A DNA stretch of 64,000 bases from NCBI RefSeq assembly GCF_036075115.1, contig NZ_CP107958.1, positions 2,046,001-2,110,000 on the forward strand, read 5' to 3'. The notes under the pieces were generated by a model, which was given only the letters and a program-made list of their open reading frames with translations, was not told the DNA's origin and ran no database searches. Source of the DNA: Streptomyces sp. NBC_00377. Lineage in GTDB: Bacteria > Actinomycetota > Actinomycetes > Streptomycetales > Streptomycetaceae. Position 1 is the stretch's first letter. The number at the start of each line of letters is the position of its first letter. The position numbers and the translations under genes are program-made. Positions 13,443 through 34,438 of this stretch are shown here, one piece after another.

Positions 13443-14128
13443 TGCCGAAACCATTCCCCTCCCTGTCCGGCTACGGCCTCGGCTGGTCGACCCGCCAGCG
13501 CATCACAGTCCTCGCGACCGGCCTCGCCGTCCTGCTGGCCCTCGCCGTCGTCGTCGCCCTGCTCACCGGCCGCACCACAGCCGGCGACAGCCAGGCCGCC
13601 GCTCCGTCCTCCGGGCCCAGCAGCAGTACCTCCGCGTCCGCCGGCCCGACGGCGTCGGCCGGGGCCGGTTCGGTGGCCAAGCCCCCGCAGCTGGCGGACC
13701 CGGTCGCCTTCGCCAAGGCCGCCGCCGCAACGCTGTGGGCGTACGACACCCGCACCACCAGCCGTGACCAGCAGCTCGCCGGAATGAGGGCGTGGCTGAC
13801 GGCGGAGACGAAGTACGCCGACTGGTCCTCGATCGCCACACAGGTGCCGGATCCGGTGCTGTGGTCGCGGATGGCCGACCAGGACCAGTACGCCACCGCC
13901 ACCGTCACGGAGGCCCACTACCCCTCGGCGTTCAAGCAGGCCCTGGCGGACGATCCGTCGGCGATCACCGAGGCGTACATCTACGCCGTCACCGTCACCG
14001 GCAAGCAGCAGATCGCCTGGAAGAAGGGCGGGGCCGGCGCCGAGGACCGCTCCATCACCCTCGCCGTGCAGTGCCGCCCCAACGCGAACTGCTCGCTGGT
14101 CTCCATCGCCCCCCGCGTCGTGCCCTGA
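13442..14128 (+). CDS. bitopic conjugation protein, VirB8/TcpC-like
   Basis: A 228-residue protein: cytoplasmic tail, one membrane helix at about residues 20-42 (VLATGLAVLLALAVVVALL), a Ser/Ala/Pro linker and an extracytoplasmic domain from about 80 on (FAKAAAATLWAYDTRTTSR, YATATVTEAHYPSAFKQA, ITEAYIYAVTVTGK). That layout matches VirB8/TcpC-type scaffold proteins with an NTF2-like fold. ATG 13442 overlaps the preceding stop by one base. Assignment rests on topology and context. Confidence 0.65.
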   Translation: MPKPFPSLSGYGLGWSTRQRITVLATGLAVLLALAVVVALLTGRTTAGDSQAAAPSSGPSSSTSASAGPTASAGAGSVAKPPQLADPVAFAKAAAATLWAYDTRTTSRDQQLAGMRAWLTAETKYADWSSIATQVPDPVLWSRMADQDQYATATVTEAHYPSAFKQALADDPSAITEAYIYAVTVTGKQQIAWKKGGAGAEDRSITLAVQCRPNANCSLVSIAPRVVP

Positions 14129-14167
14129 CCTGCCCCCAGCCCACCTGAGAAAGGAGGGGATTCCCCC

Positions 14168-18231: not shown

Positions 18232-19746
18232 ATGAGCCACCGGCCTGCGCGCCGAGCCCGCCGAGCCAGCGCCAGCCCCCTGTTCACCCCGCACGGCACC
18301 GATCGCGCATCCCGCAAGGCTGCCCGCCGGCAGCTCGCCGAGGCCGCCGCGAAGGCCCGCCTCGAAGCAGCCGCCCACACCAGCGGCGCTGGCGTAGCAG
18401 AACAGGAGATGCCGGCGCCCCTCTTCCCACCCGCCGGGCGACCCGGCCCCGCGTCCTCCCGCAACAACAGGCTCAAGCTGCCCGCCCACCGCATGACCAC
18501 GGCTACCGCGAGCGGGGCGTACCCGTTTCTCGCCGAAGGCGGCCTCGGCGCCGAGGGCATCTACATCGGCCGCGACGTCCACGCCGAAGCCAGTTTCTGC
18601 TTCGACCCGTTCGCGCTGTACGGCAAGGTCGAGGGCTTCACCAACCCCAACGTACTCCTTGCCGGGGTGATCGGGCAGGGCAAGTCGGCGCTGGCCAAGT
18701 CCTTCGCGTTGAGGTCGATCGCCTTCGGGTACCGGGTCTACGTCCCGTGTGATCCGAAGGGGGAATGGACGCCCGTGGCGCAGGCGCTGGGCGGTACCTC
18801 CATCGCGCTCGGGCCGGGCCTGCCCGGAAAGTTGAACCCTCTGGACGCGGCGCCGCGGCCCAACAGCGTCTCCGAGGCCGACTGGGCTGGCGAGATCCGC
18901 AAGCGCCGCCTGCTGCTGCTCGGCTCGCTGGCCCGCACCGTGCTCGGGCGGGACCTGCTGCCGATGGAGCACACCGGGCTCGACGTCGCGCTGGATGCCG
19001 TCGTCACCCGCGCCGTCGCGACCGGTCGTACCCCGCTGCTCGGCGACATCGCCGCCACCCTCAACAACCCCGACGAACTCGATGTGGCCGGCGGCATCAT
19101 GTCCGGCCGCCTCGGCGACGCCTCCCGCGACCTGGCCCACGCCATGCGCAGGCTGGTCCACGGCGACCTCGCCGGGATGTTCGACGCCCCGAGCACGGTG
19201 GCCTTCGATCCCAACTCGCCGATGCTCACCATCGACCTGTCCCGCCTGGGCGGATCCGGCGACGACACCGCCTTGGTCTTGGCGATGACCTGCGCGTCCG
19301 CGTGGATGGAATCTGCACTGTCCGACCCGAACGGCGGCCGGCGCTGGATCGTCTACGACGAAGCCTGGCGCCTGATGCGCCACCCCGGCCTCCTGCAGCG
19401 CATGCAGTCCCAGTGGAAGCTGAGCCGCGGCCTGGGCATCGCGAACCTGATGGTGATCCACCGGCTGTCCGACCTGCTCACCGCGGGCGATGTCGGATCC
19501 CGCGGCCGGGCCCTGGCCGAAGGTCTGCTCGCCGACTGCTCCACCCGAATCGTCTACCGACAGGAGACTGACCAACTCCATGCCGCAGCAGCCCTGCTGG
19601 GCCTGGCCTCGGTGGAGACCGACGCGATCTCCCACCTCAACCGGGGCCGCGGCTTGTGGAAGGTCGCGGGGCGCAGTTTCATCGTGCAGCACCTCCTGCA
19701 CCCCCACGAGCTGGCGCTCTTCGACACCGACACCCGCATGCACTGA
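18232..19746 (+). CDS. VirB4-like conjugation ATPase
   Basis: A 504-residue ATPase of the VirB4/TraE group. Walker A is GVIGQGKSALAKS near residue 145, Walker B is RRWIVYDEAWRLM near 370, and a VirB4-like segment GLGIANLMVIHRLSDLLTAG follows. The N-terminal oligomerisation domain typical of VirB4 is short here; that function may reside in the separate SCO6880-type protein. It should power assembly of the transfer channel at the inner membrane face. ATG 18232 lies 45 bases after the secreted-protein gene. Confidence 0.85.
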   Translation: MSHRPARRARRASASPLFTPHGTDRASRKAARRQLAEAAAKARLEAAAHTSGAGVAEQEMPAPLFPPAGRPGPASSRNNRLKLPAHRMTTATASGAYPFLAEGGLGAEGIYIGRDVHAEASFCFDPFALYGKVEGFTNPNVLLAGVIGQGKSALAKSFALRSIAFGYRVYVPCDPKGEWTPVAQALGGTSIALGPGLPGKLNPLDAAPRPNSVSEADWAGEIRKRRLLLLGSLARTVLGRDLLPMEHTGLDVALDAVVTRAVATGRTPLLGDIAATLNNPDELDVAGGIMSGRLGDASRDLAHAMRRLVHGDLAGMFDAPSTVAFDPNSPMLTIDLSRLGGSGDDTALVLAMTCASAWMESALSDPNGGRRWIVYDEAWRLMRHPGLLQRMQSQWKLSRGLGIANLMVIHRLSDLLTAGDVGSRGRALAEGLLADCSTRIVYRQETDQLHAAAALLGLASVETDAISHLNRGRGLWKVAGRSFIVQHLLHPHELALFDTDTRMH

Positions 19747-20661: not shown

Positions 20662-21180
20662 TTGTCCCTGCCCCACCCCGACTTCGACCTGTACGACAAC
20701 GTTGGTCGTACCGGCGAGCAGATAAAAGACCACCGCGGCAACCGGCCCACCACCGACGACCTGCACCGCTGGGCCGCCTACGACGCCAAGCAATTCGCCG
20801 ACGGCCTCACGATCGAGGACGCCGGGCAGAGCGTCATCGCCTGGACCCGCCGGCTGTACCAAGTGCGCACGACTGCCGAGTTCCAGGCCGTCACCACCGC
20901 CGTCCTAGGCGACGGACACAGCGCTCTGAGTGAGCTGCACCAGTTCCTGGAGACGGCCGCCGAGTGGTGCAAGCGCAAGCACGAGCCGAAGATCGCCGAA
21001 CGGTACCGCCGGCACGCCGAGCAGCTGTCCGAACTCGGAGACGAACTCAGCTACTTGACCGACGACCACCTGGCCGACACCTACCGGCGCACGCACCCGT
21101 CAGCCCCGGCCCAGCCCACAAACGGCCCCGCGGCGGCACCCGCGCCACCGGCCGCACCCGCACGCCGCCCCTCCCGCTGA
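20662..21180 (+). CDS. hypothetical protein, 172 aa
   Basis: A soluble 172-residue protein starting at TTG 20662 after GAGGAG. The N-terminus PDFDLYDNVGRTGEQI recurs in the truncated copy at 19786. The middle is helical (FQAVTTAVLGDGHSALSELH, FLETAAEWCKRKHEPKIAER), and the tail is Pro/Ala-rich. No family recognised. It lies in the accessory run after the VirB4-like gene. Confidence 0.6.
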   Translation: MSLPHPDFDLYDNVGRTGEQIKDHRGNRPTTDDLHRWAAYDAKQFADGLTIEDAGQSVIAWTRRLYQVRTTAEFQAVTTAVLGDGHSALSELHQFLETAAEWCKRKHEPKIAERYRRHAEQLSELGDELSYLTDDHLADTYRRTHPSAPAQPTNGPAAAPAPPAAPARRPSR

Positions 21181-21231: not shown

Positions 21232-21684
21232 TTGCCTCTGTCTGACCACTTCCGCTTCGGCGCCCATCCCGACCACGGCTTCGTGGCCGCCGCCACCGCG
21301 AACATCCCCGCGCACCTGGCCGACTGGTTCCTGCTCCGTGAACAGTTCGAGCCGGTCCCCGAGACCCCGGGCCTGTACCGGCTCACCCACCCCCAGCAGG
21401 ACGGGGTCCGCCGTACTCGCCAGGCCGTCCTCGACCTTCGCCGACACGGTTACGAGGTGCAGGCCGACTACCCCCTCGACCCCGCCCTCACCGCCGGCCC
21501 ACCGCAACCGGCCGTGCGTATCAAGCTGATGGAGCGACGCAACCCCATCGCGCAGGCAGCGGCCACCCGCTCCCCGCAAAGGCTCACCGCCCCGACAGCC
21601 ACCCTCCCTGAGTTTGTGCCGCAGACCGCCGCTGTGCCCGTGGGCGACCGAGCACAGACAGCCGGAAAGGGGCGGAGCCGATGA
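21232..21684 (+). CDS. small alpha/beta accessory protein (GF-x-GY domain)
   Basis: A 150-residue protein carrying one copy of an alpha/beta module that recurs in this operon: FVAAATANIPAHLADWFLL, then YRLTHPQQDGVRRTRQAV and LDLRRHGYEVQADYPLDP. Equivalent parts occur in the 21681, 25100, 25840, 26595, 27284 and 27732 products. TTG 21232 has AAAGAAAG upstream. The stop overlaps the next ATG. Function unknown. Confidence 0.6.
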   Translation: MPLSDHFRFGAHPDHGFVAAATANIPAHLADWFLLREQFEPVPETPGLYRLTHPQQDGVRRTRQAVLDLRRHGYEVQADYPLDPALTAGPPQPAVRIKLMERRNPIAQAAATRSPQRLTAPTATLPEFVPQTAAVPVGDRAQTAGKGRSR

Positions 21685-22031
21685 GCGACGAAGCGATCCG
21701 CATCACCCGCGGCCTGGGCGGCGAAGTCGAAGTCGATGGCCCGGTCGATGCCTTCGCCGCGAGTGTCCTGGCCCGTGCTGGATTCGACACTTATCCCACG
21801 CTGCGCGGCGTGTGGATCCGGTTGTCGTTCGACCTGGGCCGCACCTGGGAGAACGAACACGCCACCTGGGCTGCGGAGATGCTCACCACCGCCCGCTACA
21901 GCGTCGACCTCGACCCTGACCTGTGCCCCACTTCCGCCGCAGCCTCCGCACCGCCGACGCTGCGCCGCACGAAGACCGCCATGACCGCGCAGCCCTCGCC
22001 CGCCGGCACCCCGCGGCGGCCACGGCGCTAA
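21681..22031 (+). CDS. small alpha/beta accessory protein (GF-x-GY domain)
   Basis: A 116-residue protein; ATG 21681 overlaps the preceding stop as ATGA. The module is visible as VEVDGPVDAFAASVLARAGF, VWIRLSFDLGRTWENEHATW and MLTTARYSVDLDPDL, where ARYSVDLD replaces the more usual GYxVxxD. The tail is Ala/Pro/Thr-rich. Paralogous to several downstream genes; function unknown. Confidence 0.6.
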   Translation: MSDEAIRITRGLGGEVEVDGPVDAFAASVLARAGFDTYPTLRGVWIRLSFDLGRTWENEHATWAAEMLTTARYSVDLDPDLCPTSAAASAPPTLRRTKTAMTAQPSPAGTPRRPRR

Positions 22032-22062
22032 CCCGGCTGTCCCAAGACGAAAGCCCGCTGCC

Positions 22063-22305
22063 CTGACTTCCTCCGCCAAGATCACCCTGCACCTCGCCGC
22101 CAGCAACACGATGGTCGCGCGCCCCAGCGGGGAGCGGCACCGGTGGGCCACCACCGCCCTTTAACTGGCGGGATTCACCCGGCACCAGGACGAGGTCCAC
22201 GCGCTGTCGACAACCCCTCCCCAGCACGTGAGGCTCACCAAGCTGCACCGGACAGACCGCGACTGCCAGGACAAGGTCATCGCCATGGGCCACTGCCCGT
22301 GCTAG
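22063..22305 (+). pseudogene. GF-x-GY domain gene interrupted by TAA
   Basis: From CTG 22063 to TAG 22303 the frame keeps strong third-position bias but has a TAA at 22162-22164. On either side the sequence (ITLHLAASNTMVARPSGE, then LAGFTRHQDEVHALSTTP) continues the alpha/beta module found in neighbouring genes, with the stop inside the helix before GF. A nonsense mutation in a former paralogue is the simplest reading; a restart at the following CTG is possible. Confidence 0.5.
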
Positions 22306-22378
22306 CACCCCGCCCAGGTCGCGCCAAGCGCACGGAACACACCGAACCACCCCTGACGATAAGGAGATTCGCCCTCAT

Positions 22379-22876
22379 ATGGCCGTCCGAACGACGTGGA
22401 ACATCGTCCACAGATGTGGACACGAAATCTCGCATGATCTTTCCAACCGCCCCGCCGACCGGCGGGCCGGATTCGCCCGCTGGCTGGAGGGACGCGACTG
22501 CACCGACTGCTGGAAGGCCGCCCGCGACGAGGACAGCGCCGGCAAGGAGGAGTGGCTGGCCGCCAGGCGCGCGGAGGAACAGCAGGCCGCCACCGAGTGG
22601 GCCGAGAAGTTCGACATGCCGCCGCTCGAAGGACCCGAGAAGGCTCTCGCCTGGGGTGAGCGCTCCCGCCACCAGCTCGTCACGACTGCGTACAGCGCGC
22701 TGGTGACCGAAGGCAGCTGGGACGAGGCCGACTGGGCTGCCCTGGAGGACACGATCCGCACCGTCACCCGCGTTGGGTGGTGGATCGATCAGCGCGACGC
22801 CGAGGGCACTGACCTGCCCGAACTCCTGGACGCCGCCACCAGCGACGACACCGGAACCGAGAATCCGTTCCGGTAG
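22379..22876 (+). CDS. putative zinc-finger protein
   Basis: A 165-residue protein beginning with a Cys/His cluster: HRCGHEISHDLS and RDCTDCWKAARDE could bind one zinc ion. NRPADRRAGFARWLEGRDC is a recognisable conserved block. The rest is helical and acidic, ending LPELLDAATSDD. ATG 22379 lies after AAGGAG. It is the last gene before palindrome C, so it probably ends the upstream transcription unit. A nucleic-acid or protein-binding role is likely. Confidence 0.65.
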   Translation: MAVRTTWNIVHRCGHEISHDLSNRPADRRAGFARWLEGRDCTDCWKAARDEDSAGKEEWLAARRAEEQQAATEWAEKFDMPPLEGPEKALAWGERSRHQLVTTAYSALVTEGSWDEADWAALEDTIRTVTRVGWWIDQRDAEGTDLPELLDAATSDDTGTENPFR

Positions 22877-22885
22877 ACACAGGGT

Positions 22886-22936
22886 CTTGTACCCGACGAT
22901 CACCGGTTACCGAAACCGGGGATCGTCCGGATCCTT
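22886..22936. promoter_or_regulatory. palindromic promoter element C
   Basis: CCGGTT and AACCGG flank ACCGA (22903-22919). The plus face has ATCCTT (22931-22936) 11 nt beyond AACCGG and precedes the 22986 operon. The minus face has TACAAG (22891-22886) at the same spacing and would run back into the 22379 gene. The plus-face sequence AACCGGGGATCGTCCGGA closely matches the minus faces of elements A and B. Confidence 0.6.
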
Positions 22937-22985
22937 GTTCCTCCCACCGCCTCCCCTGCGCGTGATAGTGGAAGGAACCCCTGCT

Positions 22986-23408
22986 GTGCCCGACGCCGTT
23001 TTCCGCCATCCGCATGCCCCAGGTGACGTCGTCACCCCCGAACGGGATATCACCCACCAGCACTTCCGGCCCGGCGACCAGGTCGTCATCCTCAAGGGCA
23101 TTTCCGGCAGTGAGCTGTGGGGAGACGCCTACAAGGTCGTCACGCCCTCGTGGCACACGCCGACCGACGAGGACGGGTGGCGGCTGTACGACCCGGCCGG
23201 CGGCGAGCGCACGTACCTCACCGCTCACCCGCGCTACCTCGTCCATCTCTCCAGCCGCTGCCCGGACTGCCTCATCTACCAGCAGGCGCTGCGTACTTAC
23301 CTCGTCCCACGCCTGGCCGGCGCCGAAGGGGACGTCGACTGCGGCTGGTACTCGGTCAACCACCTCAATCAGGTGGTGCACGTCGCCGACGCCCGAGGCG
23401 GGCGATGA
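22986..23408 (+). CDS. hypothetical protein, 140 aa
   Basis: A 140-residue protein starting at GTG 22986 (GGAAGGAA upstream), first gene after palindrome C. It reads as a small beta-rich domain (FRPGDQVVILKGISGSELWG, GWRLYDPAGGERTYLTAHP) followed by a Cys pair (RCPDCLIYQQALRTYLVP). A PGDxVxI-type barrel and a CxxC motif are visible, but I do not recognise the family. The stop overlaps the next ATG. Confidence 0.6.
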   Translation: MPDAVFRHPHAPGDVVTPERDITHQHFRPGDQVVILKGISGSELWGDAYKVVTPSWHTPTDEDGWRLYDPAGGERTYLTAHPRYLVHLSSRCPDCLIYQQALRTYLVPRLAGAEGDVDCGWYSVNHLNQVVHVADARGGR

Positions 23409-24175
23409 CCCCCAGCCCTGAGCGCAACGCGGCCCTGGCTCGCGCGGCTTCGATCGCCATCGAGACGGTCGCCGGTACCCAGTGGCCAATGCGCCTGGCC
23501 GAGGCCCTGCGTGATCTGGACACGACGTGGCAGGAGTCAGCCGAGGTGTGCGCTGACGTCGCCTGGCAAGCCCGCGCCGCCGGGAACAGTGCGCTGGTGC
23601 TTCTCGACCCCGAGCACGTCACCGACCCCGGCCCCGGCCCGGTCATCTGGCGGACGTACCGGCACCTCTACCTGAGCGCCCTGCGCTACGACTTCCGGTG
23701 CCGCTCCATCGAATCCCTCCTGAACCAGGTGCCGTTGAGCGTGCTGAATGCGGACCCGCACAGCTGGGCGCTGTACGCCTTCGCGCGCCTGGGCCAGTCC
23801 CGCTCGGATGGCCTGGCCGTGATGGAACAGGTCCTCGCCACGGCATCGGATCACCCCAAGACGCTGCACGTCCTGCTGCATGGAGTGTGGCTGGGCGGTC
23901 TGCTTCCCGGCCGCGCGGACGCGCTGCTCGCCCTCGTGGACCGGCTGCCCGAGGGCGGTGGAGACGATCCGATCGCGCAGTTCCGCAAGGCTTCGGCGCT
24001 GCGCGCGCCGGGCCAGTACCGCCAGGCGCGCACGGCCATCGAGCGCGCCCTGGAACTCCTGCCGCCGGGCAACCTGGCCGTCCACTCCGACCTGGTGCGC
24101 GAACACACCCTGATCACCGCCGCGCACGACCTGACCCAACTCGCCCGTAGGCGCCGGAAGTCCACCTCACAATGA
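23405..24175 (+). CDS. TPR-like helical protein
   Basis: A 256-residue all-helical protein with repeat-like helix pairs: SWALYAFARLGQSRSDGLAV, TLHVLLHGVWLGGLLPGRAD, IAQFRKASALRAPGQYRQAR, TAIERALELLPPGNLAVH. These resemble tetratricopeptide repeats, which bind partner proteins. ATG 23405 overlaps the preceding stop and its own stop overlaps the next ATG, so it belongs to a tightly coupled trio with the 22986 and 24172 genes. Confidence 0.65.
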   Translation: MTPSPERNAALARAASIAIETVAGTQWPMRLAEALRDLDTTWQESAEVCADVAWQARAAGNSALVLLDPEHVTDPGPGPVIWRTYRHLYLSALRYDFRCRSIESLLNQVPLSVLNADPHSWALYAFARLGQSRSDGLAVMEQVLATASDHPKTLHVLLHGVWLGGLLPGRADALLALVDRLPEGGGDDPIAQFRKASALRAPGQYRQARTAIERALELLPPGNLAVHSDLVREHTLITAAHDLTQLARRRRKSTSQ

Positions 24176-25077
24176 TCATCCGTATCCATCCACGCGACAT
24201 CAGCCCCAGCGAGCCGCTTGCCGAAGCCCTCGACCGCCCGGTCAGCGACCAAGAGGGTCTGACCGAGCACACGGTGGTCGCCCTCTGGCCGGGGCTGGAC
24301 TATTACACGCTCGACGACGAGCAGAAGTCCTGGACCTCCGCCGAGTGGGCCGAGCACCTTGACGACCCCAGCTGGCAGCACCCCTTCGCGGCCGGTGCGC
24401 AGGACGACCGACGCGCCATCTGGCACGCGGATGTGCGCCTGCACGCCTGCGACCGCGACCTCACCGGCCCCGAGTGGTCCGAGATCGCCCACCGGATCGC
24501 CCGCATCGCGGGCATCCAGCGGCCGGGGGACGACCACGGCTGCCGCTGGATCGCCGTCCAGGCACAGCCCGGCCGCCTCGACCTGCTCGCCAACCTCATC
24601 CGCCCGGACGGCACATGGACCACGCAGCCCCAACGGCTGCTTCCGCTCCTGGCAGCCGAGTGCCGACGTATCGAGGCCGAGCTGGATCTCCGTTCTCCCC
24701 TCCTCGGCCCTGATCCTGGGCAGACCGCCCGCTTCTCGGAGCGCTCCACCGCGGCGGGCAACGGCGCTTCACCAGGCGCTGGCGACGCCACCACTCAACT
24801 CGCCGGACTGCTCCGCCAGCTCGCCGACGGGAACACCGGTCCGCTCGCGACCGTGCGCGGCCTCGTCGAGCACGCGGCCCACCGTCTCGATCGCCTCCCG
24901 CACGCCTACGGCCCGGCCGCAGGACACCAACTGGAGCTGATCGCCCGCCGCTTGTACGGCGTCCAGCAGGACCTCGACGCGACCGCCGCCGCCCTGCCCG
25001 CTACCGCACGGCCGGTGCCCCTCTCGACCCGGATGACCGCCGCGCCTCCCACGCCCGGCACCCGGCTGACCCACTGA
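24172..25077 (+). CDS. relaxase-like protein lacking catalytic histidines
   Basis: A 301-residue protein. Residues 65-165 follow the pattern of the Streptomyces relaxase/mobilisation nuclease domain: WHADVRLHACDRDLTGPEW, SEIAHRIARIAGIQRPGDDH, GCRWIAVQAQPGRLDLLANL, then IRPDGTWTT. Where active relaxases have a metal-binding segment like RHADDHIHIVA, this protein has QAQPGRLDLLA, so the HxH motif is gone. Residues 205-285 are a helical bundle like those of the 25100 and 26595 products. It probably binds DNA or a relaxase rather than nicking oriT. Confidence 0.6.
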   Translation: MIIRIHPRDISPSEPLAEALDRPVSDQEGLTEHTVVALWPGLDYYTLDDEQKSWTSAEWAEHLDDPSWQHPFAAGAQDDRRAIWHADVRLHACDRDLTGPEWSEIAHRIARIAGIQRPGDDHGCRWIAVQAQPGRLDLLANLIRPDGTWTTQPQRLLPLLAAECRRIEAELDLRSPLLGPDPGQTARFSERSTAAGNGASPGAGDATTQLAGLLRQLADGNTGPLATVRGLVEHAAHRLDRLPHAYGPAAGHQLELIARRLYGVQQDLDATAAALPATARPVPLSTRMTAAPPTPGTRLTH

Positions 25078-25099
25078 CCCCCCTTGAAAGAACAGCTTC

Positions 25100-25810
25100 T
25101 TGGCCTTTGCCGATCGCTTCCTGACCCTGGGGCGCGACGCGCACTCCGGAGAAGTCCTCGTCCGCGGCGGCGATCCGGAAGCCCACAGCATCCTTCAACG
25201 CACCGGCTTTGTCCCCGTCGTCCGCCTCCACGAGACCTATCACCGCCTGCCCATCGGTCTCGACATAGCCGAGGAGGAACGTCTCGCCACTCGCGCCGTG
25301 GCCCGGCTGCGCGCTGTGCGCTACCACGTCGACGCCGATGACGCCTTCGACACCGAGACGCGCGAGTCGCACTACCAGCCACTCGGCTCGCTGGTCGCCG
25401 ACCTCGCCGAGCGGATCCGTGAAGCCACCACGAGCGGCGAGGTCGCCGACGCGCTGACCGAACTGACCGCCTCCCACGACGGAGTGCTCATCGCGCTGGG
25501 CGAAGTCCTCACCGCGACCGCCGCCTTCTACCAGGGTCTGGGCCAGGCCCCGGATCCGCACACCGCGAAGCGGCTGCAGTACCTCGGCGAGCACCGGCTC
25601 GGCGTCATCCGGTCCGACCTCACCCACATGCGCAACGACCTCGCCGACCGGCACCAGAACCACCCCCAGCGCCGCGCGTGCACCGCCGACGTCGGGCCGG
25701 ACGAACGCGAAGCCTCCGCCATCTGCGCCTGTCCCGCGCCCTCGCCGCGCCTGACCACCAGCCCCGCCGCCGCACCCACCGCAGCAGCCCCGGCAAACAG
25801 GCGGCGCTGA
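25100..25810 (+). CDS. two-domain accessory protein (alpha/beta plus helical bundle)
   Basis: A 236-residue protein. Residues 10-85 form the recurring alpha/beta module (HSILQRTGFVPVVRLHETYH, LATRAVARLRAVRYHVDADD). Residues 95-185 form the recurring helical bundle (LVADLAERIREATTSGEVAD, GVLIALGEVLTATAAFYQG, LGVIRSDLTHMRNDLADR). TTG 25100 lies after GAAAGAACAG. The same domain order is found in the 26595 product. Function unknown; the tail is Pro/Ala-rich. Confidence 0.65.
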   Translation: MAFADRFLTLGRDAHSGEVLVRGGDPEAHSILQRTGFVPVVRLHETYHRLPIGLDIAEEERLATRAVARLRAVRYHVDADDAFDTETRESHYQPLGSLVADLAERIREATTSGEVADALTELTASHDGVLIALGEVLTATAAFYQGLGQAPDPHTAKRLQYLGEHRLGVIRSDLTHMRNDLADRHQNHPQRRACTADVGPDEREASAICACPAPSPRLTTSPAAAPTAAAPANRRR

Positions 25811-25839
25811 CCCCCGCCCCCTTCCTTTCTGAGGAGACC

Positions 25840-26598
25840 ATGCACGTCCCCACCCCCGACACCACTCTCGGCTCGTTCGCTGCTGTCCTCGCCGGCGAAC
25901 TGCCCGGCGCCTGGACCAGCACGTACCACCCGGACCGCGGCGGCAACAACGATCACGCCGCCCTCACCGACCACGTGTGGGACATGAACCAGGTCGCCGA
26001 CACCCTGGCCAAGCACACCGTGGACCACTGCGCCGTGCTGACCCGCGACGACGGCAGCCGACTGTTCGTCGCGGACCCGCTCGGGCACGGCGAGGGCTAC
26101 CTGATCGCCGCAATGGCCCCCACCGACGCACCGGCCGAAGCGTTCCGTGGCGTCCGCGAGCCCGACGGAATCGCGGTGGACGCCGATCCGTTCAGCGCCG
26201 CCGAGGACATCCATTTCGACCTGCTGCCCCGGTACGACAAGGCCCTCGCCCAGGTCCGCACCAACGCCGCCCGCCTCACGACGCCGCCGGCCGCTGAGCC
26301 GGAACACGTGGTGATGACCTGGTCCGGCGACGCCCTCGTCGTCGACAAGCCCGACCGCGACGACATCGTCCAGGCCCTGACCGAGGCCGGCTTCGCCCTC
26401 GACGCGGAAGACGACGTCTTCGTCCTGTCCGGTGACGACTCCGCGCACCAGGCCGCGTCCGTACGAGCCGCCGGCCAGCGCTTGTCCGAGCTGGGCGTCG
26501 GCGTCGTCCTACGTAATCCGCCCGCCCGGCCCGCCCTGGGCACCACCTCGGTAGCGCCTCCGAGCCCGCCGGTCACCTCTCCGCACCGGGGCCGGTGA
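25840..26598 (+). CDS. accessory protein with C-terminal GF-x-GY module
   Basis: A 252-residue protein beginning at ATG 25840 after GAGGAG. The first 145 residues are a distinct domain (VDHCAVLTRDDGSRLFVADP, GEGYLIAAMAPTDAPAEAF). Residues 150-225 are the recurring module (HVVMTWSGDALVVDKPDRDD, IVQALTEAGFALDAEDDVFV, VRAAGQRLSELGVGVVLR). The stop overlaps the next GTG as GTGA. Function unknown. Confidence 0.65.
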   Translation: MHVPTPDTTLGSFAAVLAGELPGAWTSTYHPDRGGNNDHAALTDHVWDMNQVADTLAKHTVDHCAVLTRDDGSRLFVADPLGHGEGYLIAAMAPTDAPAEAFRGVREPDGIAVDADPFSAAEDIHFDLLPRYDKALAQVRTNAARLTTPPAAEPEHVVMTWSGDALVVDKPDRDDIVQALTEAGFALDAEDDVFVLSGDDSAHQAASVRAAGQRLSELGVGVVLRNPPARPALGTTSVAPPSPPVTSPHRGR

Positions 26599-27263
26599 CT
26601 CTCGCCCACGGGGACGAGCCGACGTTCCTCGTCCTGGATTACGTGACCATTTCCCGGGACCCGAAGACCGCGCTGGTCGTCGCCATCGGGGGCGACCAGC
26701 GCGCGGCCGGCCTCTTGCAGACCGCTGGCGGCTTCCGTTCCGCCCCAGGCCCACGCGGCGACTACCACCGTCTGCCGCACGCCCTGCCCGTCGAGGAGCA
26801 GCGTCAGGGTGCCACCGCCGCAGCCCATGCCCTGCTTCTGGCCGGGTACAGCGTCCATCTCGACCCCATGCTCAACACCCTGGCCACCCAGGGCAGCGAC
26901 CGGCAAGCCGCCCACCGCCATCTCGAACAGCTCACCTCACTCGGCAGCGATGCCGACAATGACCGGCAGGTCGCGGCGGTCCTGACCGAGATCGCGGCAC
27001 CCGACGACGGCCTGCTGCCCCGCCTGACGCAGTCGCTGCTTGCGACCTGGGCATCGTGGGGCCGGCGTCTCAAGGACACCGGCGGTGACCCGCAGGTGGC
27101 CATGCAGCTGGGCACCATCGTCAACCAACTGTCCACCCTCACCTGGCAGATCGAGCAGGTCCGCAACGACGTCGACCGGACCGGCCCCGCACTACAGACC
27201 TACCCCCGCCCAGTGTCCACAGCGCCCTCGCCGCTGGCTGCGCCCGCCGTTCGACAGCGCTGA
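26595..27263 (+). CDS. two-domain accessory protein (alpha/beta plus helical bundle)
   Basis: A 222-residue protein with the same domain order as the 25100 product: alpha/beta module at residues 25-100 (AAGLLQTAGGFRSAPGPRGD, YHRLPHALPVEEQRQGATAA, ALLLAGYSVHLDPML) and helical bundle at 110-195 (VAAVLTEIAAPDDGLLPRLT, QSLLATWASWGRRL, STLTWQIEQVRNDVDR). GTG 26595 overlaps the preceding stop. Clearly paralogous to 25100 although identity is low. Function unknown. Confidence 0.65.
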   Translation: MTLAHGDEPTFLVLDYVTISRDPKTALVVAIGGDQRAAGLLQTAGGFRSAPGPRGDYHRLPHALPVEEQRQGATAAAHALLLAGYSVHLDPMLNTLATQGSDRQAAHRHLEQLTSLGSDADNDRQVAAVLTEIAAPDDGLLPRLTQSLLATWASWGRRLKDTGGDPQVAMQLGTIVNQLSTLTWQIEQVRNDVDRTGPALQTYPRPVSTAPSPLAAPAVRQR

Positions 27264-27283
27264 CCTGATCCCCGAACAGGAGC

Positions 27284-27706
27284 ATGCCGTACGTGGGAAA
27301 CCGCGCCGACGACGAAGGCACCGACGTCGAGATCTACATCAGACCGCTGACCGACACGGTCCACGCCGACACCCCCACCGATGCGCCCGAGAAACTCCTG
27401 GCCCTGCTCGACAGCCTCGGCTTCGAACGCAAGACGGCGGCGACGGCCGGGCCCGTCTATGTCTGGCACGAGGTCCCCGACCGCCTCACCAAGGCCGAGA
27501 AGAAGAGGCTCGCCACCAGCGCCGTCCCCTCGCTGCTCGTGGCCGGATACCTGGTCAACATCACCAACGCCGTCTGGGACGCCGCCGCCTATCAGGAGGC
27601 CGCAGAGGCAGTGCGCCGCCAGCCCGGCGCCGCAGCCGCGCCGCACACCGCGACCGCCTCCGTCATCCGGGCCCACAGCAGTCCGGCGACACCTCGTCGG
27701 CGGTGA
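27284..27706 (+). CDS. single-module accessory protein (GF-x-GY domain)
   Basis: A 140-residue protein made almost entirely of the recurring alpha/beta module: VEIYIRPLTDTVHADTPTDA, EKLLALLDSLGFERKTAA, VWHEVPDRLTKAEKKRLATS, LLVAGYLVNITNAVWDAA. ATG 27284 follows ACAGGAGC. The next gene encodes a close relative, suggesting recent tandem duplication. Confidence 0.65.
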   Translation: MPYVGNRADDEGTDVEIYIRPLTDTVHADTPTDAPEKLLALLDSLGFERKTAATAGPVYVWHEVPDRLTKAEKKRLATSAVPSLLVAGYLVNITNAVWDAAAYQEAAEAVRRQPGAAAAPHTATASVIRAHSSPATPRRR

Positions 27707-27731
27707 GCCACGATCGAAAGGAGTCCCGCTC

Positions 27732-28103
27732 GTGAGCCTGGCGGACGAGCACGAGGTCGACGTTGAGTTCTATCACCGCGACGGAACGATCTACGTCGAT
27801 ACCCGCACCAGCGCCCCGGAGCAGCTGCTCGTCCTGCTCGACGGCCTCGGGCTCGAACGCCACGGCGGCGAGGGCGAGATCTGGCATCAAGTCCCCGACC
27901 AGATGGACGAGATCGCCATGAAGGACATGGCCGATCGGGCTGCGTGGCTGCTGACCGGCCACGGCTTCCAGGTCTCCATTGATACGGGCCTCTTCGGCGG
28001 CACCGCCTACCGCGCCGCCCTCGCCGCATCCCCAGCACACCGGCCGGCACCCGCGCCCGCAGCGCCTGCCCCGAGCGCGTCGCGCCCTCGCCGTACGCGC
28101 TGA
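27732..28103 (+). CDS. single-module accessory protein, tandem paralogue of 27284
   Basis: A 123-residue protein starting at GTG 27732 after AAAGGAG. It parallels its neighbour closely: VDVEFYHRDGTIYVDTRTSA, EQLLVLLDGLGLERHGGEG, IWHQVPDQMDEIAMKDMADR, LLTGHGFQVSIDTGLF. The C-terminal tail is Pro/Ala/Arg-rich. Function unknown. Confidence 0.65.
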   Translation: MSLADEHEVDVEFYHRDGTIYVDTRTSAPEQLLVLLDGLGLERHGGEGEIWHQVPDQMDEIAMKDMADRAAWLLTGHGFQVSIDTGLFGGTAYRAALAASPAHRPAPAPAAPAPSASRPRRTR

Positions 28104-28158
28104 CCACCCACCGCGCCGACCCCACAGGGGGGCGGCCCAGACCTCACCTGGAGTACCT

Positions 28159-28380
28159 GTCACCCGCGAAACCGACCGCACCCCACCGCCCATCACAGCC
28201 GACCGCAAGCCGCGCCTGGTCACCGCCCTCTTCCGCCGCTACCTGCGGGCCGTCACCGCCGACAGCCGCAACCGGACCAACCTGCTGGCCGGCGGGCACC
28301 CCGAAGCGGCCCTCGACGAAGCCCGGCGCCGGCACATGTTCCCTCTCGTCGACAGCCACCACATCCGCCACCACAACTAG
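28159..28380 (+). CDS. small basic protein without a canonical start
   Basis: A 73-codon frame with strong third-position bias (RLVTALFRRYLRAVTADSRN, NLLAGGHPEAALDEARRRHM). GGAG lies five bases before GTC 28159, the first codon of the high-bias stretch; no ATG, GTG, TTG or CTG precedes it in frame within the intergenic gap. A near-cognate start or a mutated GTG is implied. The product is basic and helical. Not recognised. Confidence 0.5.
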   Translation, partial: VTRETDRTPPPITADRKPRLVTALFRRYLRAVTADSRNRTNLLAGGHPEAALDEARRRHMFPLVDSHHIRHHN

Positions 28381-28409
28381 CAGCCCGACCTGGCCCGTTC
28401 AGGAGGCCC

Positions 28410-28802
28410 ATGACCAACCCCCCGCCCCTCACCTCGGTACGGCTCGCTGACGACATCGCACGCCAGCTCAGCCAGCTCACACAGCTCTTGGCCCAATCGC
28501 CGCCGCACGAGGCCGCCCAGATTCTCGGCAAGGTCCTCGACTACGACGAGGGCCTGCTCGGACGAGTCACCAACCTGGTCGCCACCGGATCACGCTTCGC
28601 CCAGGACCACTCCCAGCGCGGCATCCTGCACCCCGAGGTATGGCTGGCCCTGGGCCGCGCGGCCAACGAACTCGACAGCGTGGGCGAGGACCTCAACGAG
28701 CACACCGGCACGATCAAACAGCTCGCCACGCCCGCCACCCCGTCCACCAGCCCGGCTGCGCGGCCCGCCGGATCGGCGATGGTCGTCAGGCGGCACCGGT
28801 GA
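28410..28802 (+). CDS. helical bundle accessory protein
   Basis: A 130-residue protein equivalent to the helical bundle of the 25100 and 26595 products: LADDIARQLSQLTQLLAQS, ILGKVLDYDEGLLGRVTNLV, VWLALGRAANELDSVGEDLN. ATG 28410 follows CAGGAGG. Its stop overlaps the next GTG, coupling it to a DUF317 gene. The 29769 product is a paralogue with the same DUF317 partner arrangement. Confidence 0.65.
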   Translation: MTNPPPLTSVRLADDIARQLSQLTQLLAQSPPHEAAQILGKVLDYDEGLLGRVTNLVATGSRFAQDHSQRGILHPEVWLALGRAANELDSVGEDLNEHTGTIKQLATPATPSTSPAARPAGSAMVVRRHR

Positions 28803-29605
28803 GACAGAACAAGCAGTGGTCCGGCTGGGGCGCCGCCGGTCAGCAGGCCCAGCAGCACTACCTCGTCGAGCCCCGCTATCTCGCCGGCGGCGGCGACCTG
28901 CGCCACGTCACCGAGTACCTGCGCGCCTCCGGGTGGAAGGACAAGTCCAAGAGCGGCGGCCCCATCGTCTTCGACAGCCCGGACAAGTCCGTGCACATCG
29001 GATACGACCCGTTCACCCAGCCCGGCGGCTGGACCATCAGCGGGAAGCAGACCGCGCACCAGGAGGCATGGCACGCCACCTTCGGCCGGCAGACGCCCGT
29101 CGAAATCGTCGCCAGTATCACCGACGCCCTGTTCAAGGAGCGCAAGGCACACGCCCCCAACGTGTGGGAGCCCCTGCAGCAACAGGGCTGGGAGACCGAG
29201 CGAGGCCAGCACTTCACCGCCCGCAGCCCGGACGGCGATGCCTTCGTCCGCTTCCACCAGTCTGGCCCAGGCCAGGCACACTGGTGGGTCGGTGCTCGCA
29301 ACGAACACGGCCGTGTGTGGGAGGCGATGTTCACGCCGACCACGCCGATGCATCTGGTGCAGGCATTCAGCACGGCGCTCGCGGACCCGCAGCCCGTGCT
29401 GCGGCCCCTCGGCCGCGTCCCGCCCTCCCAGCGGATCCGCACCACCTCCGTGTCCGTCCTGCCGTCCCAGCTCAGCGCCTGGCAGCAGGCCCGGATCACC
29501 GCCGCCAGAGCGGCCACATGGGCCCATAGCTCCTTCGCCACCAACCGGGCCCGCTCCAGCCCCGGCGCTCGCCCGTACGCGACGTCCGACGGCCGACGCC
29601 GCTGA
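28799..29605 (+). CDS. DUF317 domain protein
   Basis: A 268-residue protein with two DUF317-type repeats. The first contains YLVEPRYLAGGGDLRHVTEY, LRASGWKDKSKSG and AWHATFGRQTPVEIVASITD; the second contains VWEPLQQQGWETERGQHFTA, WWVGARNEHGRVWEAMFTPT and THPMHLVQAFS-like sequence (TPMHLVQAFSTAL). DUF317 proteins are frequent on Streptomyces plasmids and integrative elements and have no assigned activity. GTG 28799 overlaps the preceding stop as GTGA. First of three DUF317 genes here. Confidence 0.85.
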   Translation: MRQNKQWSGWGAAGQQAQQHYLVEPRYLAGGGDLRHVTEYLRASGWKDKSKSGGPIVFDSPDKSVHIGYDPFTQPGGWTISGKQTAHQEAWHATFGRQTPVEIVASITDALFKERKAHAPNVWEPLQQQGWETERGQHFTARSPDGDAFVRFHQSGPGQAHWWVGARNEHGRVWEAMFTPTTPMHLVQAFSTALADPQPVLRPLGRVPPSQRIRTTSVSVLPSQLSAWQQARITAARAATWAHSSFATNRARSSPGARPYATSDGRRR

Positions 29606-29652
29606 CCGGCCTCGGGTGAATACGCCCGCTGCCCTGTCCCCAACTTTCCTCG

Positions 29653-29769
29653 ATGGCAAGGAGGTTCATCACCGATCTGAACTGCGACGACACCCTCGCC
29701 ACAGGGGATATCCACAGGGCCGTCCACAGCCTGGCCTGCTCACCACCACGTTTCACTCAAGGACGCTGA
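29653..29769 (+). CDS. possible small ORF, 38 aa
   Basis: ATG 29653 to TGA 29767 encodes 38 residues (FITDLNCDDTLATGDIHRAV...) between two accessory modules. AAGGAGG lies inside the frame at codons 2-4, so translation might instead begin just after it. Third-position bias is only moderate. The stop overlaps the next ATG. Low certainty. Confidence 0.3.
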   Translation: MARRFITDLNCDDTLATGDIHRAVHSLACSPPRFTQGR

Positions 29770-30122
29770 TGCCCAACCCCTCACACCCCAGCTCCGACCA
29801 GATCGCGCAGGCGACCGCAACCCTGACCCAGCTCAAGGACTATCTACGCACCAACCCGCCCGTCACCGACGTGCTGCCGCTGCTGGCTCGCCTCCTCGAC
29901 GAGGACACCGGCGTCCCCATCCTGCTCGGCGACGTCCTGCGCAACGCCGCGCACCTCGTCTCCCAGCAGGCCACCAGCCCCCAGACCGACGAGATCCGCC
30001 TGATCATCGACGGGCTCCGGGACGCCGCCCAGGAGGCCACGGACTGGCACGTCCTGCACTGGGACATCCAGCGCGCGGGCGGCCAGGCGTTCGCGCCCGC
30101 AGGTCCGCCGACGACTTCGTGA
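29769..30122 (+). CDS. helical bundle accessory protein
   Basis: A 117-residue protein paralogous to the 28410 product: IAQATATLTQLKDYLRTNPP, VLPLLARLLDEDTGVPILLG, LRNAAHLVSQQA, IRLIIDGLRDAAQEATDWHV. The LLD-x-D-x-G motif at the centre of the bundle is shared. The stop overlaps the GTG of the following DUF317 gene, repeating the helical bundle + DUF317 unit. Confidence 0.65.
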   Translation: MPNPSHPSSDQIAQATATLTQLKDYLRTNPPVTDVLPLLARLLDEDTGVPILLGDVLRNAAHLVSQQATSPQTDEIRLIIDGLRDAAQEATDWHVLHWDIQRAGGQAFAPAGPPTTS

Positions 30123-30937
30123 CCCGCCCCTACATCGCCAGCAAAGCCGACGACCCCTGGTCTCGTATCTGGTTCGACACCAGTCCCCGTCATCTCGCCG
30201 GGCCCGGCGACCCGCGCCATGTCACCCAGGCGCTGCGGGCCGGCGGCTGGAAGAACTACGCCGACCCCGACTTTCCCCATGTCGTCCTGGCCAGCCCCGA
30301 CTTCCGCCACACGCTCGTACTCGAACCCGCTGCGGACACGTACTCCGCCTGGTGGCGGATCTCCTCACAGCGCTGGCACGCGTCGTTCGGCGGCAACACA
30401 CCCGCCGAGATCATCGCCGGAATCACCGACGCCCTCCTGCACCCCGCCCCGGTCGCGGAGCCAGATGTGTGGCCGACCCTGCAAGCGGCGGCCTGGACCT
30501 ACGAGCGCGACGAGCGGGGCAATGAGAGTGCGCGCCATCCGGACGGCATCACCACCATGGAGCGGCGGGCGACGCTGACGAGCGACTACTTCAGCTGGAG
30601 CGCCGACGTCGCGCTCCCCACAGGTCTCGGCGGCCACCAGCGGCTGTGGCACGCGTACTTCGACGACCGCACACCCCGCCACCTGCTCGCCGCCTTCGCC
30701 ACCGCCCTCACCGACCCCGCGCCCGTGCCGCGCGGCCGCTACGACGTCCCGCACTCCCACCTGGTCACCCAGGTGGAACGCGGCGCCCAGGGCGAGCAAC
30801 TGGCCGCCGCCCACGAGGCGCGCCTGAAGGCCATCCGGGCCGCCGCCCGCAAGGCCCGCCGCAGTGGCGCGCCGACCACGCACCCCGTCCTGGCACCCGC
30901 CGCCGAGTTGGCCGCTGCTGCGGCCCGGGGCCGCTGA
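30119..30937 (+). CDS. DUF317 domain protein
   Basis: A 272-residue protein with two DUF317-type repeats: SPRHLAGPGDPRHVTQALRA, GWKNYADPDFPHVVLASPD, RWHASFGGNTPAEIIAGITD, then VWPTLQAAAWTYERDERG and LWHAYFDDRTPRHLLAAFAT. GTG 30119 overlaps the preceding stop. Clearly paralogous to the 28799 and 31611 products. Function unknown. Confidence 0.85.
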   Translation: MTRPYIASKADDPWSRIWFDTSPRHLAGPGDPRHVTQALRAGGWKNYADPDFPHVVLASPDFRHTLVLEPAADTYSAWWRISSQRWHASFGGNTPAEIIAGITDALLHPAPVAEPDVWPTLQAAAWTYERDERGNESARHPDGITTMERRATLTSDYFSWSADVALPTGLGGHQRLWHAYFDDRTPRHLLAAFATALTDPAPVPRGRYDVPHSHLVTQVERGAQGEQLAAAHEARLKAIRAAARKARRSGAPTTHPVLAPAAELAAAAARGR

Positions 30938-31005: not shown

Positions 31006-31614
31006 TTGACCATTCCACTGGAACCCGCGAGCCCAGAGCACCGCCTCCATCTGAGCCAACTCGCCATCTACCTGAGGGAAAGCAGGCAGATCCTCGCCGC
31101 CTGGGACGCCTACTCCGACCAGCACTCCGACCCCGAAACGCACCAGCCCTACGACGAGGACACCTACGGCCTGCGCCAGCGCCAGCGCGACTCCGACACT
31201 TTGGTCTCTTTCGGTCGGGTATATGACCACGCCGACGAACTGGTGCACGTCGCCGAACAGCAGCTCGCCCAGCTGCCCACCTCCGCCCGGACCCGGCGCT
31301 ACGCCTGGCAGGTGCGAGAACTGCGCGACAGCACCAAGGGGCTGTACGCCGTCCACGACGACTGGCTCGCCGTGCGCCGCGCACTGCCCGCGAGCGCCCG
31401 GCCCGGGACCGCGGCGTTCGATGAACCGCTCGCCGAAAGCTACGCGGAAGCCTGGCACTACCTCGACCAGTGGGCGATCCACGGCCAAGCGCTCTTCGCC
31501 ATCAACGCGCTGGCGCAGAAGCGACCGAAGGCATCCGCGCCAGCACTGGTCACGACGCCGCCCATGCCCAGGGCCGCCGCAGCGTCGTCTACGGCCCGGC
31601 GGTGGTGCGCGTGA
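31006..31614 (+). CDS. helical accessory protein
   Basis: A 202-residue helical protein (LHLSQLAIYLRESRQILAAW, ELVHVAEQQLAQLPTSAR, QVRELRDSTKGLYAVHDDW, YAEAWHYLDQWAIHGQAL). TTG 31006 has GAAGG upstream. It takes the place of the small helical bundle before the third DUF317 gene, whose GTG overlaps its stop as GTGA. The sequence is not clearly homologous to the other bundles. Confidence 0.6.
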   Translation: MTIPLEPASPEHRLHLSQLAIYLRESRQILAAWDAYSDQHSDPETHQPYDEDTYGLRQRQRDSDTLVSFGRVYDHADELVHVAEQQLAQLPTSARTRRYAWQVRELRDSTKGLYAVHDDWLAVRRALPASARPGTAAFDEPLAESYAEAWHYLDQWAIHGQALFAINALAQKRPKASAPALVTTPPMPRAAAASSTARRWCA

Positions 31615-32132
31615 GCGACACCGTCGAGCAGGCGCTCATCACCCCGCGCTATCTCGCGGGCGGCGGAGACCCGGGGTGGATCACCGTGCCGCTGCATCGC
31701 GCCGCTGGCCGGAGCTACGGACACGAGCCGCTGACGCCGCGCGTCCTGCTCACCAGCCTTGACCAGCTCATCCAGCTGCGTCTGGACCCCGACCCGGACG
31801 ATCCGGGCTGGTGGACCATCCGGCACACGCGTACCGCGGATCACCCCGGCTGGACGGCCACCTTCGACGCCCGCACCCCCGTCGAGATCATCGCCGCCTT
31901 CACCGACGCCCTGACCGATCCATCCGGCCCGCCCACCGCGCCCGATCCCTGCGATCCGAGCTGGATCCCGGGCTTGGCCCGCGACCGCATGACCGTGCAC
32001 ACCCATCACGTCGCCGCGCCGGACATCGCCTTCGCCCTGGAGCGACGCGTCAGCGCCCTCGCCGCCCGGCACCGCCCAGCGACCACTGCCCCGCCCGCGC
32101 CGCACGGCCGTTCGCCGCGCCGCACCCGCTGA
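31611..32132 (+). CDS. DUF317 domain protein, short
   Basis: A 173-residue protein with one full DUF317-type repeat (LITPRYLAGGGDPGWITVPL, WWTIRHTRTADHPGWTATF, DARTPVEIIAAFTDALTDP) and only the start of a second before a Pro/Arg tail. It is shorter than its two paralogues at 28799 and 30119. GTG 31611 overlaps the preceding stop. It is followed by the coupling-protein gene. Confidence 0.8.
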   Translation: MSDTVEQALITPRYLAGGGDPGWITVPLHRAAGRSYGHEPLTPRVLLTSLDQLIQLRLDPDPDDPGWWTIRHTRTADHPGWTATFDARTPVEIIAAFTDALTDPSGPPTAPDPCDPSWIPGLARDRMTVHTHHVAAPDIAFALERRVSALAARHRPATTAPPAPHGRSPRRTR

Positions 32133-34256: not shown

Positions 34257-34438
34257 CCACGCCGCCCACCGAATCCCTGTTGTTCGACGTGCCGCCGCTG
34301 ACGCCCCTCTCGCGGCTGCTCCGCCTCGCCGATCAGTACACCCGGCACAACGACGCGCTCGACGGCCACGACATGACCGCAGGCGATCTCCGGCATGAAG
34401 TAGAGCCGGTGCAGGGCCACTTCGGGCTAGCTTCTTGA
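34253..34438 (+). CDS. small hypothetical protein, 61 aa
   Basis: A 61-residue protein (LLFDVPPLTPLSRLLRLADQ, YTRHNDALDGHDMTAGDLRH) whose ATG overlaps the preceding stop and whose stop overlaps the TTG of the methyltransferase gene. Codon bias is good. No recognised domain. Given the coupling, it may be a partner of the methyltransferase. Confidence 0.55.
   Translation: MTTPPTESLLFDVPPLTPLSRLLRLADQYTRHNDALDGHDMTAGDLRHEVEPVQGHFGLAS

Follow-up and report, generated by a model that had tools for sequence, protein, structure and literature searches.

The window analysed here is a stretch of 64,000 nucleotides (G000:C1:2046001-2110000) from the 9.24 Mb, two-contig genome of Streptomyces sp. NBC_00377. 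Its genes between positions 11257 and 33977 include a transfer region of the type IV secretion system (T4SS) type, which encodes an NlpC/P60 hydrolase, a SCO6881 family protein (a T4SS membrane component; 14168-15535; NCBIfam NF047967, 576 bits, above the cut-off), a SCO6880 family protein (15532-17094; NCBIfam NF042935, 428 bits, above the cut-off), a VirB4-like ATPase (18232-19746; NF045971, E 9e-19, under the curated cut-off) and a VirD4-like coupling protein (32181-33977; NF045973, E 3e-22, also under the curated cut-off). Between the VirB4-like and the VirD4-like gene sits a cassette of small genes, which are named here by their first positions; all genes from the SCO6881 family gene to the VirD4-like gene described below are read on the + strand. 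An earlier reading of these letters alone (the original prediction) had seen in the cassette a set of accessory genes, for putatively interacting proteins, built from two small domains, one alpha/beta and one helical. It had overlooked a relaxase-like domain and C-terminal tails common to many of the proteins, and these two features are the best clues to function.

The relaxase-like domain is the N-terminal half of the 24172 product (24172-24705). With a profile of 26 relaxases, 20 from related genomes, four from plasmids and two of this genome, it aligns over 166 columns at 30% identity (hhalign 99.85%, E 6.8e-31). A tblastn search of plasmids with this half returned 137 records at E values up to 1 (best 3e-10), and 30 of the 40 plasmid matches listed are annotated as 'mobilization protein' or 'relaxase/mobilization nuclease'; in the reverse direction, a plasmid relaxase used as query matches the 24172 locus with an E value of 3.9e-14. 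The predicted structure of the 24172 product (predicted local distance difference test score, pLDDT, 80) was aligned by VIA with MobM (5n2q; Z 9.4, root-mean-square deviation 4.3, 153 aligned residues), MobA (2ns6; Z 9.2) and TrwC (Z about 8). VIA calls Z values of 7-8 common, and those for MobM and MobA are modestly higher. With the same model, seven MobM chains stand among the best 50 matches listed by Foldseek, none below E 0.1, and Foldseek alone gave no match with an E value below 0.05. The Pfam Relaxase model reached three of the 39 members of the 24172N family, with a best E value of 0.023 that lies under the cut-off.

The motif-I tyrosine, which we take to be catalytic, and the three histidines at what is presumably the metal site are present in 26/26 relaxases. 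Among 61 pseudo-relaxase open reading frames (ORFs), three to four of which are gapped at these columns, the tyrosine and two of the histidines occur in none and the third histidine in two. Since the tyrosine and at least two of the three histidines are gone, we regard 24172N as derived from a relaxase and do not file it as one. In the alignments and in the predicted structure it is a relaxase copy that has lost its nicking residues and kept the fold. The C-terminal half of relaxases is missing from the 24172 protein, which carries a helical module in this place (24772-25077; hhalign 95.6% to the C-terminal domain of 25100). The original prediction was thus right about the helical part of this fusion and missed its N-terminal partner.

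Intermediate forms exist among related loci. In seven ORFs (L066-L072) the tyrosine is kept in 6/6 that reach it and the third histidine in 6/7, while the other two histidines are lost in 7/7; the relaxase-like domain shares one frame with an alpha/beta module in all seven and continues into a helical module in six. Furthermore, 24172 and 25100 lie in a single open frame in L045, L059 and L063. The same frame fusion is found in L121, which is probably the same contig as L059. Directly upstream of the relaxase-alpha/beta-helical fusion, L066:7271-7789(-) and L070:6945-7322(-) hold a second relaxase-like fragment with the His motif lost, as judged by eye. On a 2.8 Mb Streptomyces plasmid, a relaxase-like and an alpha/beta plus helical match stand in a row with VirD4 (NZ_CP081497.1:238108-241174), much like L066-L072.

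The remaining module proteins are, by their sequences, the outcome of duplication, fusion and reshuffling of the alpha/beta and the helical module into about ten proteins. Lone alpha/beta modules are encoded by 21232 (21232-21684, with a long tail), 21681 (21681-22031, tail PRRPRR), 27284 (27284-27706, tail TPRRR) and 27732 (27732-28103, tail RPRRTR), and alpha/beta plus helical proteins by 25100 (25100-25810, tail ANRRR) and 26595 (26595-27263, end VRQR). Gene 25840 (25840-26598, tail HRGR; in 61/63 loci, that is, in 62 named relatives and the window) joins a domain of its own, 25840N, to a divergent alpha/beta module. Lone helical modules are found in 28410 (28410-28802, end VVRRHR) and in 29769 (29769-30122, no tail). 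The protein labelled 20662 (20665-21180, where a TTG at 20662 is a possible alternative start; tail ARRPSR) is a further helical-module protein that the original prediction had overlooked. The 25840N domain (window 25840-26270), which has no name, counts 97 profile members in the 63 loci, frequently in an additional gene where the cassette begins, and is joined to an alpha/beta domain in both orders.

Several of these kinships are visible within the window by blastp: 25100 and 26595 match over 179 residues (E 1e-12), 27284 and 27732 match at 5e-17, 21681 and 26595N at 5e-6, and 28410 and 26595C at 5e-5. We also built iterated domain profiles, cut to the domain cores, each starting from a single domain of the window and drawing the rest of its training sequences from other loci only, with reversed sequences as decoys. 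The alpha/beta profiles of 21681, 25100, 26595, 27284 and 27732 retrieve one another with E values from 1e-3 to 1e-30 and zero decoys listed; 21681, for instance, is found by the 25100N (E 2e-23) and 26595N (E 3e-20) profiles. The helical profiles of 25100C and 26595C match each other mutually (1e-26 and 1e-28) and retrieve 28410 (E 2e-3 and 2e-7). Helical matches to 24172 (2e-4) and 20662 (1e-2) are marginal and close to the decoys (best 0.14-0.66), and the profiles of 21232N, 25840C, 24172C and 20662 retrieve just themselves in the window. 

Profile-profile comparison with hhalign over 21 families united what single profiles had left apart, yielding an alpha/beta cluster (21232N, 21681N, 25100N, 26595N, 27284, 27732, 25840C) and a helical cluster (20662, 24172C, 25100C, 26595C, 28410, 29769). 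21232N joins the alpha/beta family at 54-82%, in matches to five of the six other profiles, and 25840C at 47-82%, and the two never exceed 15% with each other. In the helical family 28410 scores 98% to 26595C, 20662 (a 4-member profile) 69% to 25100C and 65% to 26595C, and 29769, the weakest member, 36.6% to 28410; 25840C, 21232N, 20662 and 29769 form the weak ends of the clusters. None of the pairs between alpha/beta and helical families, or between either and the eight other families, exceeds 15%, and the best of 441 reversed comparisons reached 6.5%, not counting families aligned with their own reverse (up to 60%). The memberships listed by the original prediction are borne out in this way, those of 21232 and 25840 by hhalign only and that of 29769 weakly. 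For the broken 22063 gene (22063-22305), the remnant of an alpha/beta - 25840N protein with an in-frame stop, the evidence comes through intact relatives, to which its first 33 residues are 88% identical and whose N-domain scores 90.8% against 25840C; tested directly, the fragment does not outscore 200 shuffles.

That the domains go by no name is likewise upheld, at least for Pfam and NCBIfam, where the ten products in question gave sub-threshold matches only; PHROGs gave none below E 0.07. Neither module is a piece of the relaxase C-terminal half, since hhalign gave at most 3.8%, the level of the reversed controls. An identity of the alpha/beta module with DUF317/SPDY (PF03771), to which genes of the same operon belong, was also rejected: there was no Pfam match in the ten proteins, and hhalign of the 28799 profile with every module stayed under 15%. 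In the predicted structure of 26595 (pLDDT 86), strands 16-21 and 28-32, helix 35-45, strands 48-50 and 57-59, helix 66-82 and strand 86-89 are followed by helices over residues 95-196. This order, b-b-a-b-b-a-b and then helices, would fit a ferredoxin-like (beta-alpha-beta-beta-alpha-beta) reading of the alpha/beta module. Profile A1 had five matches among solved structures, the best at E 0.012 to a designed coiled coil, and for the alpha/beta module nothing significant; Foldseek with the 26595 model gave best E values of 0.39 in PDB and 0.11 in BFVD. VIA rows for 26595 covered residues 121-203 only, so that the alpha/beta fold was hardly probed by this method. The helical module aligns with CFP10-ESAT6, EsxEF, PE25 and EsxB at Z 7.3-8.3, indistinguishable from other helical bundles. 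The W-x-G at the turn, which we take to be the motif of WXG100/ESX hairpins, is absent, and the A2 consensus there is TAPHDG.

Many cassette proteins end, as judged from their composition, in a disordered linker and a basic C-terminus like those of true relaxases. The tail, a Pro/Ala/Ser/Thr-rich stretch followed by the basic end, recurs in cassette families of unrelated fold and in the relaxases themselves. A strict rule, demanding two R/K in the last five residues, a net charge of +2 in the last twelve and half P/A/S/T/G in the last forty, is satisfied by 22/26 relaxases and, among the cassette families, by 64/66 proteins of the 25840 type, 94/109 alpha/beta plus helical proteins, 44/47 of 21232, 18/18 of 21681, 40/53 of 27732, 132/216 DUF317 proteins and 34/60 of 31007. 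In the window it holds for 11 of the 19 cassette proteins, among them seven of the ten in question; 26595 (VRQR) and 30119 (ARGR) end in arginine and fail. The controls were 81 of 85 listed annotated plasmid coding sequences (CDS; two edge-cut ones and two IS5 transposases left out), two of which satisfied the rule, and 110 of 116 further ones (cut rows and two relaxases left out) with five, together 7/191. L180 (46 of 50 CDS, six tails), being a related transfer region, was not counted among the controls; with it the count becomes 13/237. In ungapped comparisons from the right end, identity in 26595C, 25840C, 21232N and 28410 is 24-46% for the linkers, as against 58-84% for the last three residues. 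On plasmid p1 of S. angustmyceticus, six proteins have a tail, and four of them are related to cassette proteins. A tail common to cassette proteins and relaxase hints that the former are cargo or docking partners of the machine.

The 62 named relatives of the window locus are titled Streptomyces, except for one Kitasatospora and one 'Actinobacteria bacterium'. In the genus, 79/295 genomes gave a match to 26595 in a single-sequence search, and profile A2 matched 5/296 genomes of the phylum, four in the genus and a borderline one outside (E 1.5e-4). In the 63 loci the order 21232 - (21681) - 22379 - 22940 - (23405) - 24172 - 25100 - 25840 - 26595 - 27732 - 28158 - 28410 - DUF317 - 29769 - DUF317 - 31007 - DUF317 - VirD4 recurs, varied by gains, losses and fusions. 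Modules are thus met alone (alpha/beta or helical), as alpha/beta plus helical, as relaxase-like plus helical, and as relaxase-like, alpha/beta and helical in one frame, in agreement with the duplication and fusion that had been proposed. The proposed tie to a conjugation system also stands: VirD4 lies downstream of the cassette in 56/63 loci, the seven others (L079, L088, L089, L094, L112, L120, L122) being short stretches of 3.5-11 kb, and a same-strand VirB4 gene, in one case in pieces, lies at most 50 kb upstream in 18/20 genomes. The plasmid p1 has a shorter insert at the slot. It encodes two helical proteins, one of them matched by the small 20662 profile at E 2e-8, an alpha/beta plus helical protein and a relative of 31007, next to unrelated cargo. 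A further product has one alpha/beta module that is clear (E 4e-21) and matches another in part, probably the tandem arrangement that had been proposed. Taken with the cassette-free plasmids described below, this insert indicates that slot, modules and shuffling recur. The impression that the modules are nearly absent from plasmids, given by tblastn, which returned NZ_CP050438 only, was corrected by profiles, which found four module proteins on p1, one of which led to one more record. In Streptomyces sp. SNU607, two small circular records, L034 (NZ_CP050438) and L181 (NZ_CP050439), carry cassette parts and VirD4; they may be misassembled pieces of one element. Searches of viral contigs and phages found no relative.

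Full-length relaxases are usually encoded at some distance. By hand count, 17/20 genomes have a same-strand relaxase gene 35-114 kb upstream of one cassette or more; among these 17, the relaxases of G094 and G224 are split or broken, and catalytic residues were inspected in ten. A search with PF03432 alone detected no relaxase in the source genome; a search with a relaxase protein gave two in addition to the 24172 locus. A relaxase gene that may belong to the same element lies about 54 kb upstream of the window's cassette on the same strand. The second contig (G000:C2, 42.8 kb) has its own relaxase at 14051-16273; the single-sequence search with 26595 matched C1 only, so the modules may be absent from C2.

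In such systems, an intact relaxase nicks its element and is threaded through VirD4. Our favoured reading, to which we give a probability of about 0.45, is that the cassette encodes accessory proteins of this DNA-transfer step that are recruited to VirD4. The intact relaxase encoded upstream would nick the element and pass through VirD4, and the cassette proteins would be brought by their tails to the same coupling protein, the tail being a putative docking or translocation signal read by VirD4. As auxiliaries of the relaxosome, the set might keep the complex of relaxase and DNA at the channel, and some of its members might travel into the recipient with that complex. The dead relaxase domain may, without cutting, serve to hold DNA or partners. 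In favour of this reading are the place of the cassette between VirB4 and VirD4, the relaxase genes upstream, the relaxase homology of 24172N, the tail, the recurring gene order and a ratio of nonsynonymous to synonymous change below 1 for nearly all cassette genes in three pairs of loci. A bolder version appears rather unlikely to us, namely that the conjugative elements of Streptomyces send some ten proteins of their own into the recipient as a payload along with the DNA. This payload would have been built from two home-grown modules and a disabled relaxase, and would be sorted by an Arg-terminal tail that was originally the signal of the relaxase.

Several observations weigh against recruitment to VirD4. 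Of the pseudo-relaxase ORFs, only 14/61 have the strict tail and 7/61 end in R/K; the strict tail is absent from 23405 (0/23), 22379 (0/60), 22940 (0/63) and 28158 (0/54); it occurs in 1/50 of 29769 and in 16/42 ORFs consisting of 25840N only. The 28410 proteins end in R/K in 57/58 cases, yet pass the composition rule in 8/58, and 25100C combines a linker identity of 23% with just 41% in the last three residues. All of these are ORF-level counts without correction for relatedness, and some unnamed and named loci belong to the same genomes. G012, G197 and G055 (3/20 genomes) have no relaxase near the cassette, the second cassette of G110 likewise lacks one nearby, and in G197 and G055 no VirB4 is near either. 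In five Streptomyces plasmids that share the SCO6880-VirB4-VirD4 genes, VirB4 and VirD4 are adjacent and the cassette is missing; it must therefore be dispensable for this type of machine in general. Finally, no VirD4 signal defined in a Gram-positive system is known to us with which the tail could be compared.

Some of the same evidence would suit a scaffold on the donor side, in which the cassette proteins form a complex with DNA or each other for relaxosome assembly, oriT recognition or replication of the element, the tails bind DNA or membrane and the relaxase alone is transferred. Basic tails are a common DNA-binding device, DNA binding could have survived in the dead relaxase domain, most pseudo-relaxase ORFs lack a tail, and the operon also contains DUF317 and weakly TPR-like proteins. 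However, the tail is common to relaxases, and its last three residues are better kept than the linker in four families; we consider a purely donor-side role possible but doubtful. It is improbable that the tails are a by-product of GC-rich disordered ends in an ordinary accessory operon. Arginine is indeed frequent in GC-rich sequence, 32/191 controls end in R/K, and relatedness is uncorrected as stated, but the strict tail in 86-100% of four families stands against the few control cases, and VirD4 (0/57) and the methylase (0/12) of the same stretch lack it altogether. The tail arginine codons are mostly CGC or CGG, with AGG in 2/37, which rules out that they serve as the ribosome-binding site of the next gene.

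Rates of evolution bear on two further possibilities. From the window paired with L077, L076 and L081 (few synonymous changes in the L077 pair), the ratio of nonsynonymous to synonymous changes (dN/dS) is 0.12-1.13, mostly 0.2-0.8, for cassette genes and 0.10-0.14 for VirD4 in the three pairs; nearly all cassette genes remain below 1. Fast change, together with copy numbers and fusions that differ among loci, might point to an entry exclusion or competition module, whose proteins would decide on accepted recipients or rival elements. The rigid gene order is unexpected for an exclusion cassette, however, and PADLOC gave no match for any of ten cassette products, of which six belong to the ten in question, so that we think such a module very unlikely. 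Hardest to credit is that the relaxase copy and its neighbours are decaying, functionless left-overs. The broken 22063 gene, the single-module and 25840N-only ORFs that occur among the loci and the dN/dS of 1.13 for 27284 in one pair could be taken as decay, but 24172N is present in 58/63 loci, keeps the Trp of its CRW motif in 58/58 ungapped rows and has a dN/dS of 0.25-0.49 in three pairs.

Conjugation in Streptomyces is chiefly associated with the double-stranded route by TraB/FtsK, and the literature we searched holds little on the working of Streptomyces T4SS-type elements. The two unnamed domain families, the catalytically stripped relaxase copy found in nearly all loci and the tail common to working relaxases offer handles on these elements. 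The tail is a candidate for a Gram-positive signal read by VirD4, DUF317 proteins might be given a role, and a multi-protein payload possibly enters the recipient with the DNA. Compared with the MOB relaxases of Streptomyces plasmids and integrative and conjugative elements (ICEs), 24172 is alike over the domain and in its MobM/MobA-like model, whereas it lacks the motif-I tyrosine, at least two of the three histidines and the relaxase C-terminal half, carries a helical module and mostly has no tail; the relaxases' own tail (22/26) resembles that of many cassette proteins. DUF317 proteins share operon and tail with the module proteins and differ from them in having no profile link above 15%.

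A VirB/D4 system is reported to read a C-terminal basic signal on several effectors (PMC10025392). That system belongs to another phylum with another cell envelope, delivery of the cassette proteins is only predicted, and the signals are likened by description. For the F-like plasmid pED208, experiments have shown co-transfer of plasmid-encoded proteins, whose genes lie in the maintenance and leading region (PMC11288057). That set and the cassette are alike as clusters of element-encoded proteins handled, in our case presumably, by a conjugative T4SS, the cassette being known from genes alone. Integrase, relaxase, coupling protein and VirB4 define T4SS ICEs in the passages available from Ghinet et al. 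(2011; PMC3218068) and the 2022 Streptomyces ICE survey (PMC9513070), and these passages do not mention the cassette. A 2025 T4SS review, in the section at hand, places Streptomyces under TraB (PMC12857230). Among the papers listed as naming DUF317, 'SPDY domain', SCO6880 or DUF6112, none concerned conjugation by title or the start of the abstract, and our literature search on an inactive relaxase found no paper.

The other genes of the cassette are conserved to varying degrees. Upstream of the pseudo-relaxase lie 22379-22876 (no tail, in 59/63 loci) and 22965-23408 ('22940' in the family counts, 60/63), both without known family, and an optional, weakly TPR-like protein (23405-24175; 21/63; TPR_2 E 0.008, under the cut-off). 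A small ORF (28159-28380; '28158' in the family counts) occurs in 48/63 loci. Three genes encode DUF317 (SPDY) proteins, 28799-29605 (PF03771 E 9e-38; tail DGRRR), 30119-30937 (blastp to 28799, E 3e-35) and 31611-32132 (E 5e-16; tail SPRRTR), and between the latter two lies 31009-31614 ('31007' in the family counts; 56/63, no known family, with L180_20292 as a relative). After VirD4 comes a C5-cytosine methyltransferase gene (window 34435-35709), found in 21/63 loci as far as the stretches extend. The SCO6880 protein (15532-17094) is weakly like the ESX component EccE (TIGR03923 E 4e-4; PF11203 22.5 bits, cut-off 23.7), which may hint at a link between two secretion types. Beside the upstream relaxase, L146 (G000:C1:2014409-2027000) holds more cargo genes, one of them for a product of 1077 amino acids that looks like an error-prone DNA polymerase.

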